From: Actinomycetota bacterium
GTDB taxonomy: Bacteria; Actinomycetota; Thermoleophilia; Gaiellales; Gaiellaceae
Direction of reading: 5' to 3'
Length of the DNA stretch: 42,615 bases
Assembly: GCA_003152275.1 (NCBI GenBank)
Contig: PLZU01000038.1
Span: forward strand, 1 to 42,615
Below the pieces are notes generated by a model. It saw only the letters and a list, made by a program, of their open reading frames with translations. It had not been told where the DNA came from and searched no databases. Below, piece by piece: positions 19,663 to 42,615 of the stretch. The stretch's first letter is position 1; every line of letters begins with the position of its first letter. A program made the position numbers and the translations under genes.

Positions 19663-19767
19663 GTGAGAAAGGCACGGTTCTTGTATCTGCTCGGGACCCT
19701 CTCCGTCCTGTGCTTCCACCTCAGTCTGTTCCGTCCGGGTGGCATGAGCGACGGCGGTTACTGGTAG
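19663..19767 (+). CDS. 34-aa hydrophobic peptide, candidate pheromone or membrane peptide
   Basis: This short frame encodes MRKAR, then a hydrophobic stretch (FLYLLGTLSVLCFHLSLF) and a C-terminal tail RPGGMSDGGYW. The positive N-terminus plus an 18-residue hydrophobic core looks like an export signal or a membrane-spanning segment; no AxA cleavage site is seen. The start is GTG 19663, served by a perfect ribosome binding site; GTG 19654 overlaps that site and is unlikely. It lies 22 bases after an XRE-TPR regulator and is likely cotranscribed with it, as with Firmicute Rgg/SHP or PlcR/PapR pairs. It could instead be a small membrane toxin or a regulatory leader peptide. No homologue is recognised. 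Confidence 0.65.
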   Translation: MRKARFLYLLGTLSVLCFHLSLFRPGGMSDGGYW

Positions 19768-40298: not shown

Positions 40299-41141
40299 TT
40301 ACGCGGCGAGCAGACCGCGCGAATGGCCCGCGAGCAAATACATGCTCGCGAGGCCCGCCCACTGACCGTAGGGCTCGAGCAGTTCCGCCGTTTCCCAGCC
40401 CTCGACCGGCCGTCCCCGCAGCGCGCGCAGCAGCTTGACGAGGCCGAGGTCGCCAACGAGTCCGTAGTCGTACCGGCCGAGCCCTTGCAGGCAGACGACG
40501 CCGATCGACCATGGCCCGAGGCCGCGTTCGCGTTCGAGCCGTGCCGCGACGACCGCGGTCTCGACATCGTGGAGGCGCTCGAGCTCGACCGTGCGGCAGA
40601 GTCGAACGAGAGAGGCGCTGCGGCGCGTATGCAACCCGAGCGCGCGCAGTTGTGCAGGCGCTACAGCGGCGAGCTCCGCCGTGGTCGGCGCGAGGTGCAG
40701 GCGCTCCCCGCCTTCCGGGCAAATCGTGCGGATGATCGTCTGCTCCAGCCGGCGAGCCAGCTTCGCCTCGATCAGCTGGCCGCAGTACGCGCGGAGCAGG
40801 GCTTGCGCCACGGTCGCGACCCGCAGCGGGCGGAGCCCGCGCAGAGCGCGAGCTGCACGGCCGAGCATAGGGTCGTCGCGTACCGCGCGCAGAAAGTCGG
40901 AGTGGTCGTTGTCGAGCGCGAGGATCCAACGCATCCGCTCGCCTCCCGGGGGCGACTCCGCTCTGATCGTCACGGCTCCGTCAGGCGATTGCCATGCGCG
41001 GACAAGCTCCGGCCGTCCGTCGACTGCGAGCAGGGCCGTGAAGAGCCCGTCGCGGAAGGTGCGTGTCGCATCGCTTGCGAGTCGCGCGGAGAGGGCGAGT
41101 GAGTAAGGGCCTCGAGGTCTGACCGCGAGCTCGAGCGTCAC
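40299..41141 (-). CDS. AlkA-like DNA-3-methyladenine glycosylase (HhH-GPD)
   Basis: The ~280-aa protein has an HhH-GPD core: LIEAKLARRLEQTIIRT, the hairpin-helix-hairpin LERERGLGPWSIGVVCLQGLG and the catalytic Asp231 in LVGDLGLVKLL, as in AlkA. The N-terminal beta part (LELAVRPRGPYSLALSARLASDATRTFRDGL) also fits AlkA/OGG-type glycosylases. It removes alkylated bases from DNA. GTG 41141 overlaps the upstream regulator stop as GTGA; the longer frame is shadow. Exact substrate range unknown. Confidence 0.88.
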   Translation of the reverse strand: MTLELAVRPRGPYSLALSARLASDATRTFRDGLFTALLAVDGRPELVRAWQSPDGAVTIRAESPPGGERMRWILALDNDHSDFLRAVRDDPMLGRAARALRGLRPLRVATVAQALLRAYCGQLIEAKLARRLEQTIIRTICPEGGERLHLAPTTAELAAVAPAQLRALGLHTRRSASLVRLCRTVELERLHDVETAVVAARLERERGLGPWSIGVVCLQGLGRYDYGLVGDLGLVKLLRALRGRPVEGWETAELLEPYGQWAGLASMYLLAGHSRGLLAA

Positions 41142-42457
41142 CGCTCGGCGTGCGCGCCGTCGGGTGCTGCGCGCATCCCGAGGTCGGCGGCGCGATCCAA
41201 CACGTCGAGCGCCTCGGCCTCGTTGCCCTCGTCGCGGAGCAGGCGACCCCAAGCGCGGCAAGCAGCCGCCGCGGGTCGCCAGCGTTTCGCTGTCTCGAGC
41301 AGATCCACTGCCCGTGCGTAGGCGTCGCTCGCCGCGTCGAGCTCGCCTCTGAGTGACAACGCATCGGCGAGGGCGAAGCTTGCGACTCCTTCGTCGGCAG
41401 GTTGAGCTGCTTTGCCGATGACGAGCGCTTCGCGCGCGAATCTGACCGCGAGGTCAGGCTGCCCTCTAAGCAAGGCGATCCGAGAGCGATGCTGCTTGAT
41501 CTCGAAGGTGTCTTGCGGCGCTGTGGCCGAGCCGAGCAAGCGTTCGGCGTTGTCGACGTGGGCTTCTGCGGAGTCCGGACTCTCGCGGCCGAGCATGATC
41601 CCAGCGGCGAGGATGTGCGCCCGTGCGAGATGGAACGTGTCGTCGGTCGTCTGCAGCAGTGCGATTGCCTTGCGCACGTTGGTGAGCGCCACCGACTCGC
41701 GTCCTTCGGTGTGGGCGAGTCGCGCCATCGACCAGTACAACCGCACGCGCATGTATGGATCGGCCGTTTCGTCGAGGCGGTCGAGCGCACTGCGCACGAC
41801 TTCCTCGGCGCGCGCGATCTCGCCGGCGTCGCTTAGCGCGTAGCTCAGGAGGGTTGCGTACCGCGCGACGAGAGACGCGTCGCCGTCCACGCCCTCCAAG
41901 CACTCCTGGTACAGCTCGACTGCCCGCTCCGGCCGCCCTCCGGCAGCGTAGGCGCGGCCTAGGTTCGCGTAGATGTCGAATCGGTCGATCGGAAGGAAGG
42001 GCTCACCAGCCAGCGCGCCTTCGAGCAACGCGGCGGCCTCCGCATACGCGGCGCTCTCGAGTGCGAGTTGCGCGAGCGCAACTCGGGCGCGCAGTTCCGA
42101 CGGGCGATCGCCGGCGATGACAGCCTCTTGGAGCGCCGCTTCGAGCTCTGCTCCGACGCCTTCGGGTTCGCCGAGCCGGACCGCCAGCTCGAGATCCGTC
42201 AGTCGCAGCTCGCGCGCGGCCGAGGGGGCGAGGTCGGAACCCGTCTCGAGGTAATCCGCCGACACGCCGAGTTTCGTCGCGAGACGCCTGAGCGCCTTGA
42301 CGGACGGTTGGCGCGAGCCCGCCTCGATGCGGGAGATATAGGCGTATGAGACTCCTGGGGCAGCGAGCTCGCGCTGGGAAAAACCCCGTTCCAGCCGCAG
42401 ACGCTTGAGCCGCTCCCCGATCGTCTCGCCTGCGGCCGGCGGAGAGTTAGGTAGCAC
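41138..42457 (-). CDS. XRE-type HTH regulator with C-terminal TPR array
   Basis: The ~439-aa protein has an XRE HTH at about residues 12-70 (IGERLKRLRLERGFSQRELA, SYAYISRIEAGSRQPSVKAL) and then TPR-like repeats to the end (ALLEGALAGEPFLPIDRFDIYANLGRAYAAGGRPERAVELYQECL is one typical unit). The layout matches the gene at 18288, so the two are likely paralogues. GTG 42457 gives MLPNSPPAAGETIGERLK; the frame continues upstream but lacks support. A TTGACG (42495-42490) and CAGACT lie upstream. It overlaps the glycosylase, so it is cotranscribed with repair and proline genes. Confidence 0.85.
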   Translation of the reverse strand: MLPNSPPAAGETIGERLKRLRLERGFSQRELAAPGVSYAYISRIEAGSRQPSVKALRRLATKLGVSADYLETGSDLAPSAARELRLTDLELAVRLGEPEGVGAELEAALQEAVIAGDRPSELRARVALAQLALESAAYAEAAALLEGALAGEPFLPIDRFDIYANLGRAYAAGGRPERAVELYQECLEGVDGDASLVARYATLLSYALSDAGEIARAEEVVRSALDRLDETADPYMRVRLYWSMARLAHTEGRESVALTNVRKAIALLQTTDDTFHLARAHILAAGIMLGRESPDSAEAHVDNAERLLGSATAPQDTFEIKQHRSRIALLRGQPDLAVRFAREALVIGKAAQPADEGVASFALADALSLRGELDAASDAYARAVDLLETAKRWRPAAAACRAWGRLLRDEGNEAEALDVLDRAADLGMRAAPDGAHAER

Positions 42458-42505
42458 TTCGGTCGTAGTCTGCCCGGTTGCCAGCTGTTCGTCAACCGAT
42501 TCCGC

Positions 42506-42534
42506 TTGACAACGGACAGCGGGCTTGCTCCAGT
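42506..42534 (+). promoter_or_regulatory. candidate promoter for the right-edge plus-strand gene
   Basis: TTGACA at 42506-42511 is a perfect -35 hexamer; TCCAGT 17 bases later (42529-42534) is a weak -10 candidate. It points toward the gene starting at 42594, divergent from the XRE-TPR gene. Confidence 0.4.
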
Positions 42535-42551
42535 CGAGCATCCAACAAATC

Positions 42552-42573
42552 GAGTCCCTCGTTCGAGGGACTC
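42552..42573. promoter_or_regulatory. perfect 10-bp inverted repeat before the right-edge gene
   Basis: GAGTCCCTCG (42552-42561) and CGAGGGACTC (42564-42573) with a two-base spacer form a perfect palindrome, nine bases before the AAGGAGG ribosome binding site. It could be an operator for the divergent regulator or an attenuation hairpin. Confidence 0.6.
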
Positions 42574-42593
42574 CCGAGGCCAAGGAGGCCCAC

Positions 42594-42615
42594 ATGTTCC
42601 GCAACGCTCTGACCG
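42594..42615 (+). CDS. start of a plus-strand gene, truncated by window edge
   Basis: ATG 42594 follows AAGGAGG (42582-42588) at five bases and begins MFRNALT before the window ends. Only seven residues are visible, so product and length are unknown. The setting (strong ribosome binding site, upstream palindrome, divergent from an XRE-TPR regulator) makes it a candidate regulator target or peptide gene. Confidence 0.55.

Follow-up and report, generated by a model that had tools for sequence, protein, structure and literature searches.

A putative RRNPP-like peptide-receptor family with leadered and leaderless ligands in the Gaiellales

The contig PLZU01000038.1, a stretch of 42,615 nucleotides that is here called the window (contig C12 of draft genome G000, family Gaiellaceae), ends within a tiny gene that diverges from P0001, an XRE-family regulator with a helix-turn-helix (HTH) and tetratricopeptide repeats (TPRs). 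Most relatives of this HTH and multi-TPR regulator are paired with an adjacent tiny gene whose product occurs in two forms, with and without a leader. The two forms have tail motifs in common, and in the leadered form the tail is the part under the strongest constraint. We propose that the tiny gene and the regulator encode an RRNPP-like peptide ligand and its cytosolic receptor in the Actinomycetota, a reading to which we assign a probability of roughly 0.7. The pair would work like RRNPP systems, with membership of that group by ligand binding and descent being putative.

A tiny gene accompanies the regulator across the family

A contig scan with the single protein had confirmed no relative of P0001. 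A profile made from an alignment of 18 regulators (A1) matched 106 places at E 1e-40 or better, in 69 of the 103 genomes of the window's family. Among 399 drawn genomes of the class it matched 74, all within two families of one order. Most matched records are metagenome-assembled genomes (MAGs) that bear the title Thermoleophilia, Gaiellaceae, Actinomycetota or Actinobacteria; matches elsewhere are few and weak. Peptides were read at 101 of the 106 places, after five had been dropped: G116:C424, G021:C162, G003:C293, G120:C19 (without the HTH end) and the second piece of G076:C121. Three more, the window's own included, are cut by a contig end, which leaves 98 assessable regulators.

An adjacent tiny gene is present at 84 of these 98. 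With types assigned by eye, 61 are leadered and divergent from the regulator, 5 are leadered and codirectional with it, lying upstream of the regulator gene, 16 are leaderless, and 2 are repeat-bearing or atypical. The 66 leadered peptides are about 25 to 32 amino acids long and have a basic start, a hydrophobic core and usually a tryptophan-containing tail, often PWGP. The pairing also emerges under a fixed rule, namely an open reading frame (ORF) of 5 to 45 codons that is led by a Shine-Dalgarno (SD) sequence and has Trp in its last 6 residues. Applied to those 95 of the 99 regions that reach at least 360 nt, this rule was satisfied upstream of 68 of 95 regulators. Thirty dinucleotide shuffles reached a mean of 2.0 of 95 and never more than 5, and 33 of 868 control regions upstream of other long ORFs satisfied it.

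Peptide genes recur as 2 to 3 tandem copies, and paralogues within one genome differ in their tails. In many loci the peptide is followed by a Wzy-like gene, a homologue of which, from another genus of the family, matches PF04932 (O-antigen ligase). At E 1e-8 and within 3 kb of upstream sequence, no Wzy-like gene was found in 23 loci that keep the peptide, and the peptide is therefore tied to the regulator rather than to the Wzy-like gene. A role as leader peptide of that gene was rejected on the same count.

More generally, the small ORF could act in cis, as a translated leader or an arrest peptide that would control whichever gene lies downstream through its Trp/Pro/Gly-rich end and the hairpin after its stop. 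Arrest sequences typically have Trp and Pro close to the C-terminus, and the strong SD sequence, the hairpins before and after the ORF and the five codirectional arrangements would all suit such a role. The gene that follows the peptide is not constant, as the 23 loci attest, and the peptide occurs in tandem copies. Moreover, the 10 six-codon genes with a true stop that were recovered blindly from 103 genomes (see below) all lie at a regulator, and the last residue is variable (P in many, and also W, A, G, N, H, F, Y, S, C and E), unlike what would be expected of arrest at a stop codon. We consider a translated leader improbable, and favor a ligand for the adjacent regulator.

Leaderless micro-genes

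The 16 leaderless micro-genes among the 98 assessable loci have 6 to 12 codons. In one genus the whole gene consists of six codons, encoding MLPWGS, MAPWGS, MAPWGC, MYPWGC, MWPWGE or MHPWGS. Over nine such loci Met, Pro, Trp and Gly are constant at the protein level, with Pro encoded by CCG, CCC or CCA, Gly by GGT or GGC and Ser by AGC or TCC, and with all three stop codons in use. A second genus has MREKLPIW, MREKWPIW, MRSKTQWW, MRSKLPWW, MRDKWPWW, MVRSRLGWF, MLRSRLGWF and one 12-codon ORF.

The six-codon genes can be found without reference to the regulator. A search for the pattern SD-ATG-x-CCN-TGG-GGN-x-stop returned 11 places in 10 of the 103 genomes, compared with 1 place for a reversed-pattern control. 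One of the 11 ends in TGG rather than a stop, and the other 10 are all divergent from the N-terminus of an A1-type regulator. In one case (G064:C91) the six-codon gene and a partial regulator occur twice as an inverted duplication, a possible artefact of the assembly. Over the nine loci, a block of about 28 bp (GTCAATCGGCGCTTCCTCRTGRCAACAT) 5' of the six-codon gene is nearly invariant and is a candidate promoter or operator.

Some loci depart from these two forms. One carries two in-frame repeats (MMETRSGVWPWGSETRSGVWPWGS). At locus L161 (G079:C29) an atypical ORF with two GSAGWG repeats stands where the sister locus L163 has two separate leadered peptides. At L164 (G083:C115) a single upstream region contains two ultrashort SD-led ORFs, MHGKLLWKLPWW and MREKLPIW, which might be two ligands of a single receptor. 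In family f2, loci L251 and L252 have an HTH-TPR regulator followed by a tandem second match that begins at profile position 80-81; this may be a copy with TPRs alone, lacking the HTH, and it calls Rap-like receptors to mind.

Leader loss and selection on the tail

On a tree of 94 regulators, a quick tree with long-branch warnings, the leadered and leaderless states change 3 times among 78 rows. A single clade of the 16 leaderless rows was rejected (p-AU 3.9e-8 in the approximately unbiased test, for a group named after the tree was seen). The leader thus appears to have been lost at least twice. What is firm in this estimate is that the two genera separate; the third change depends on a fork inside one genus that the tree leaves unresolved. 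For the fuller proposal we see about even odds: that this is a Gaiellales family of RRNPP-like systems in which the leader was lost independently at least two to three times, that the six-codon genes would yield the active ligand directly, and that comparison of the two forms would reveal an x-P-W-G-x code.

Selection within the leadered peptides was estimated from pairs with at least 55% peptide identity, drawn from 36 coding sequences of 34 hand-picked peptides. In 14 disjoint pairs the last 7 codons contain 3 nonsynonymous and 24 synonymous differences, giving a pN/pS of 0.04, and the remaining codons (the core) contain 58 and 69, a pN/pS of 0.35. Over all 37 leadered pairs the values are 0.10 for the tail and 0.47 for the core. 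The identity threshold lowers pN overall, and the contrast between tail and core is one between parts of the same pairs. In the leadered pairs purifying selection acts far more strongly on the tail than on the core, which is what a disposable leader joined to a conserved ligand would give.

This pattern also bears on the idea that the product acts as a small membrane toxin, or resembles a bacteriocin, and that an XRE regulator of antitoxin type represses it. Type I toxins are short basic hydrophobic peptides that are sometimes tandem, and the same can be said of the leadered peptides here. The leaderless forms of 6 to 9 amino acids have no membrane segment and keep a similar tail, however, and in the leadered form constraint is greatest in that tail rather than in the membrane core. 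We therefore regard a toxin as highly improbable, and a ligand read by the regulator as the better account.

Receptor fold and proposed mechanism

P0001 matches HTH_3 (3.6e-13) and TPR_12 (6.9e-14) in Pfam. Its AlphaFold2 model (mean pLDDT 91.9, pTM 0.77) consists of an HTH followed by 18 helices that we interpret as nine TPR pairs. A profile search against solved structures aligned PlcR over both HTH and TPR regions (E 3.1e-11). Structural matches to the model include RapI (Z 25.2), a Rap-CSF complex (22.4) and NprR (Z 21.9), and Foldseek matched the PlcR-PapR7-DNA entry 3u3w with E 5.5e-6. The predicted fold is compatible with peptide binding, which is not proof of RRNPP membership.

By analogy with the RRNPP systems of Bacillota, the regulator and its adjacent tiny gene would form a peptide-receptor pair in which the active ligand is the C-terminal 5 to 8 residues of the peptide (x-P-W-G-x in many). 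The TPR superhelix of the regulator, a cytosolic XRE-TPR protein, may bind this ligand, and the regulator's hold on the shared divergent promoter would then change, such that peptide and regulator would control each other and nearby genes. In most species read, the ligand would be carried on a precursor of about 25 to 32 amino acids, with a basic-hydrophobic leader suited to export or membrane insertion. In several lineages, loss of the leader would have left a gene of 6 to 12 codons whose direct translation product is the ligand. Binding, the direction of regulation, maturation, export and re-import, and signaling from cell to cell are all features that we infer from this analogy.

Within this ligand-receptor reading, the peptide could be a purely intracellular feedback ligand of the XRE-TPR protein, with the leader serving only as a membrane anchor. 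The leaderless forms, which have no export signal of any kind, would suit this sub-case. Its counterweights are that 66 of the 84 tiny genes still encode a leader-like N-terminus and that oligopeptide-binding proteins are present, although common: the window's genome has seven SBP_bac_5 proteins over the cut-off. A ligand that never leaves the cell is possible, if unlikely, and we retain the broader reading of a peptide ligand with its cytosolic receptor.

Several observations weigh against that broader reading. In the profile search engineered TPR proteins and LGN outrank PlcR, by fold LGN (Z 27.2) lies above Rap and NprR, and the Foldseek match to PlcR-PapR7 is only rank 34, with a TM score of 0.35 on the query. 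TPR superhelices are generic, and unrelated TPR proteins score alike or higher than RRNPP receptors. SBP_bac_5 proteins occur in 11 of 14 control genomes, and a route of export is not evident for the leaderless forms. No peptide was found at 14 of the 98 assessable regulators. Among these 14, the regulators of G082:C86, G083:C94 and G082:C91 carry flagged stops and that of G083:C42 is short; joint decay of regulator and peptide is only suggestive, because six peptide-bearing regulators also carry one flagged stop. The six-codon genes have a whole-gene pN/pS of 0.55 (36 pairs of 9), because positions 2 and 6 vary. In family f2 a micro-gene (MPGGKAWP, MYGGRIWP or MYAGRLWP) accompanies 3 of 10 HTH-bearing regulators under the rule used. 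Finally, the genomes are drafts and, where named, mostly MAGs.

The end of the window and the probable remainder of the cut gene

Features are collected in Table 1. On re-reading the sequence, the first-pass annotation proved exact in its coordinates for P0001, the TTGACA hexamer, the inverted repeat, the AAGGAGG and the ATG. The start of P0001 was assigned to the GTG at 42457 by alignment with relatives (N-terminus MLPNSPPAAGETIG).

Table 1. Positions and supporting evidence of the regulators, peptide genes and upstream elements.
Feature	Location	Strand	Basis
P0001, XRE-family HTH + TPR regulator	41138..42457	-	Pfam, alignment, AlphaFold2 model
TTGACA hexamer 5' of peptide gene	42506..42511	+	
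Perfect 10-bp inverted repeat, 2-nt loop; hairpin directly 5' of ribosome binding site	42552..42573	+	
AAGGAGG ribosome binding site, 5 nt 5' of ATG	42582..42588	+	
Peptide gene 5' end (MFRNALT...), cut by contig end	42594..42615	+	homologues in relatives
P0002, second XRE-TPR regulator, 24% identical to P0001	18228..19640	+	
34-codon peptide gene directly 3' of P0002, MRKARFLYLLGTLSVLCFHLSLFRPGGMSDGGYW	19663..19767	+	
GTCAATCGGCGCTTCCTCRTGRCAACAT block loci (L141, L143, L145, L148-L151, L175, L215)	upstream of regulators		

The window is a complete contig, and the cut in the peptide gene is therefore an assembly end. The first-pass annotation had raised the possibility that the truncated gene encodes a short hydrophobic peptide, with a long unrelated protein as the outcome that would count against it; the latter is not what was observed, and contig C91 supports the former. 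Taking a Wzy-like protein of the same-genus genome G010 as query, we located contig C91 of the window's own genome, whose Wzy-like gene (bases 81-1517) is the one match there. The first 25 bases of C91 end in ACC GAT CCC TGG GGT CCC AAC TAG, that is T-D-P-W-G-P-N-stop. Between this peptide-gene end and the Wzy-like gene, C91 (locus L262, 1-1517) has a strong GC-rich hairpin. With an MFRNALT start at the end of C12 and a PWGP-type end at the opening of C91, the cut gene very probably encodes a short peptide with its 3' end on C91, and the two contigs very probably lie next to each other, separated by a gap within the peptide gene. The window's own peptide appears, from its start and end, to be of the leadered kind. 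We infer its length, hydrophobic core and copy number, as the stretch between the contig ends is missing, and a break inside the peptide gene on both sides would fit tandem copies.

Same-genus relatives have a 32-codon hydrophobic peptide at this place, followed by the Wzy-like gene. There is one copy in G015:C4 (MLRNALTLRLALILSALALVAIFAGELPWGPA, starting MLRNALT compared with MFRNALT in the window) and in G007, two in G010 and G002, and three in G012. In G008 and G013, of the same genus, the peptide is absent from this place: in G008 and G013:C149, which are sisters in the tree, and in the partial G013:C166, the regulator region runs directly into the Wzy-like gene.

The TTGACA hexamer also precedes the peptide in G010, G002, G012 and G015:C28 and is absent in G015:C4 and G007. 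A consensus scan of 42380-42615 found no full sigma-70 promoter and scored the palindrome as 1 terminator-like site on the minus strand, with 0.2 expected from shuffles. Perfect 10-bp inverted repeats with a loop of at most 8 are present at 4 distinct sites of the window, listed as 6 positions, so the palindrome alone is weak evidence. A hairpin precedes the ribosome binding site in all 7 tandem peptide cistrons of G010, G002 and G012, where hairpins are minimum-energy folds taken without a shuffle control. The hairpin sequences of copies 2 and 3 in G002 and G012 are unrelated. A reading of the palindrome as a special operator was rejected, since such repeats are not rare in this GC-rich window and since in the later tandem cistrons of G002 and G012 the sequence differs and the hairpin is kept. 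On both grounds we read it as a hairpin of the 5' untranslated region.

A second regulator-peptide pair in the window

P0002 (HTH_31 6e-13, TPR_12 6.3e-23) had been called a paralogue of P0001. Both have HTH and TPR domains, and at their low identity the term is a loose one. Matches to P0002 at E <= 1e-30 occur in 92 of the 103 family genomes. The expectation that the regulator-peptide pairing would recur was borne out in this second family, as an SD-led ORF of 30 to 43 codons with a hydrophobic core lies directly downstream in 29 of the 30 best-matching P0002-family loci. DG occurs within the last 8 residues in 24 of these 29 peptides, and a GMSDGG-type tail is seen in most of the 30 loci. 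The window holds two different regulator-peptide pairs.

Significance and comparison with known systems

RRNPP peptide systems have been reported from Bacillota and the mobile elements of that phylum. The large RRNPP_detector survey covered Firmicutes and viruses, and its introduction characterizes actinobacterial signals as typically small molecules (PMC10075063). Among open-access titles and abstract beginnings, together with few subscription papers and without preprints, no peptide RRNPP system in Actinomycetota was found, and the string 'actino' is absent from the main text of PMC12700828, PMC10518010 and PMC9765709. If the proposal is correct, peptide communication would reach into a further phylum, by way of a conserved receptor-peptide family in Thermoleophilia, a class represented here largely by metagenome-derived genomes. 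The residues that make up the signal would be marked by the natural loss of the leader, and synthetic 5- to 8-mers could be tested directly. Six-codon genes adjacent to a regulator would count with the shortest protein-coding genes that have been proposed, and a gene finder that applies a minimum length would overlook them.

The closest architectural parallel is PlcR-PapR, an RRNPP system of Bacillus with an HTH and TPR receptor. PapR is a short propeptide with a leader and a C-terminal ligand. The present pairs differ in their phylum, in the nine modelled TPR pairs, in a tail that is often PWGx and in a mostly divergent gene order.

For the leaderless forms the nearest likeness is to leaderless communication peptides such as RopB-SIP, in which, according to PMC10518010, an ultrasmall ORF is linked to the receptor gene, often divergently, and encodes the ligand without a leader. 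The same paper describes those peptides as mostly 8 to 10 amino acids long, highly hydrophobic and from Firmicutes. The leaderless peptides here have 6 to 12 amino acids (six codons in one genus) and W-containing tails, belong to Actinomycetota and, unlike the former, have leadered relatives within the same receptor family that share their tail motifs.

Tandemly duplicated RRNPPA propeptides (PMC11343458) resemble the tandem copies described above in that one system has several propeptides. They are from Bacillota, whereas here 2 to 3 separate cistrons each have their own SD sequence and a preceding hairpin in the three same-genus genomes checked. In sheer size, the six-codon genes are comparable to mccA, the 7-codon gene of microcin C7, which is a translated antibiotic-precursor gene (PMC11241378); the genes described here are one codon shorter, are predicted to be translated, and have a regulator as their partner.

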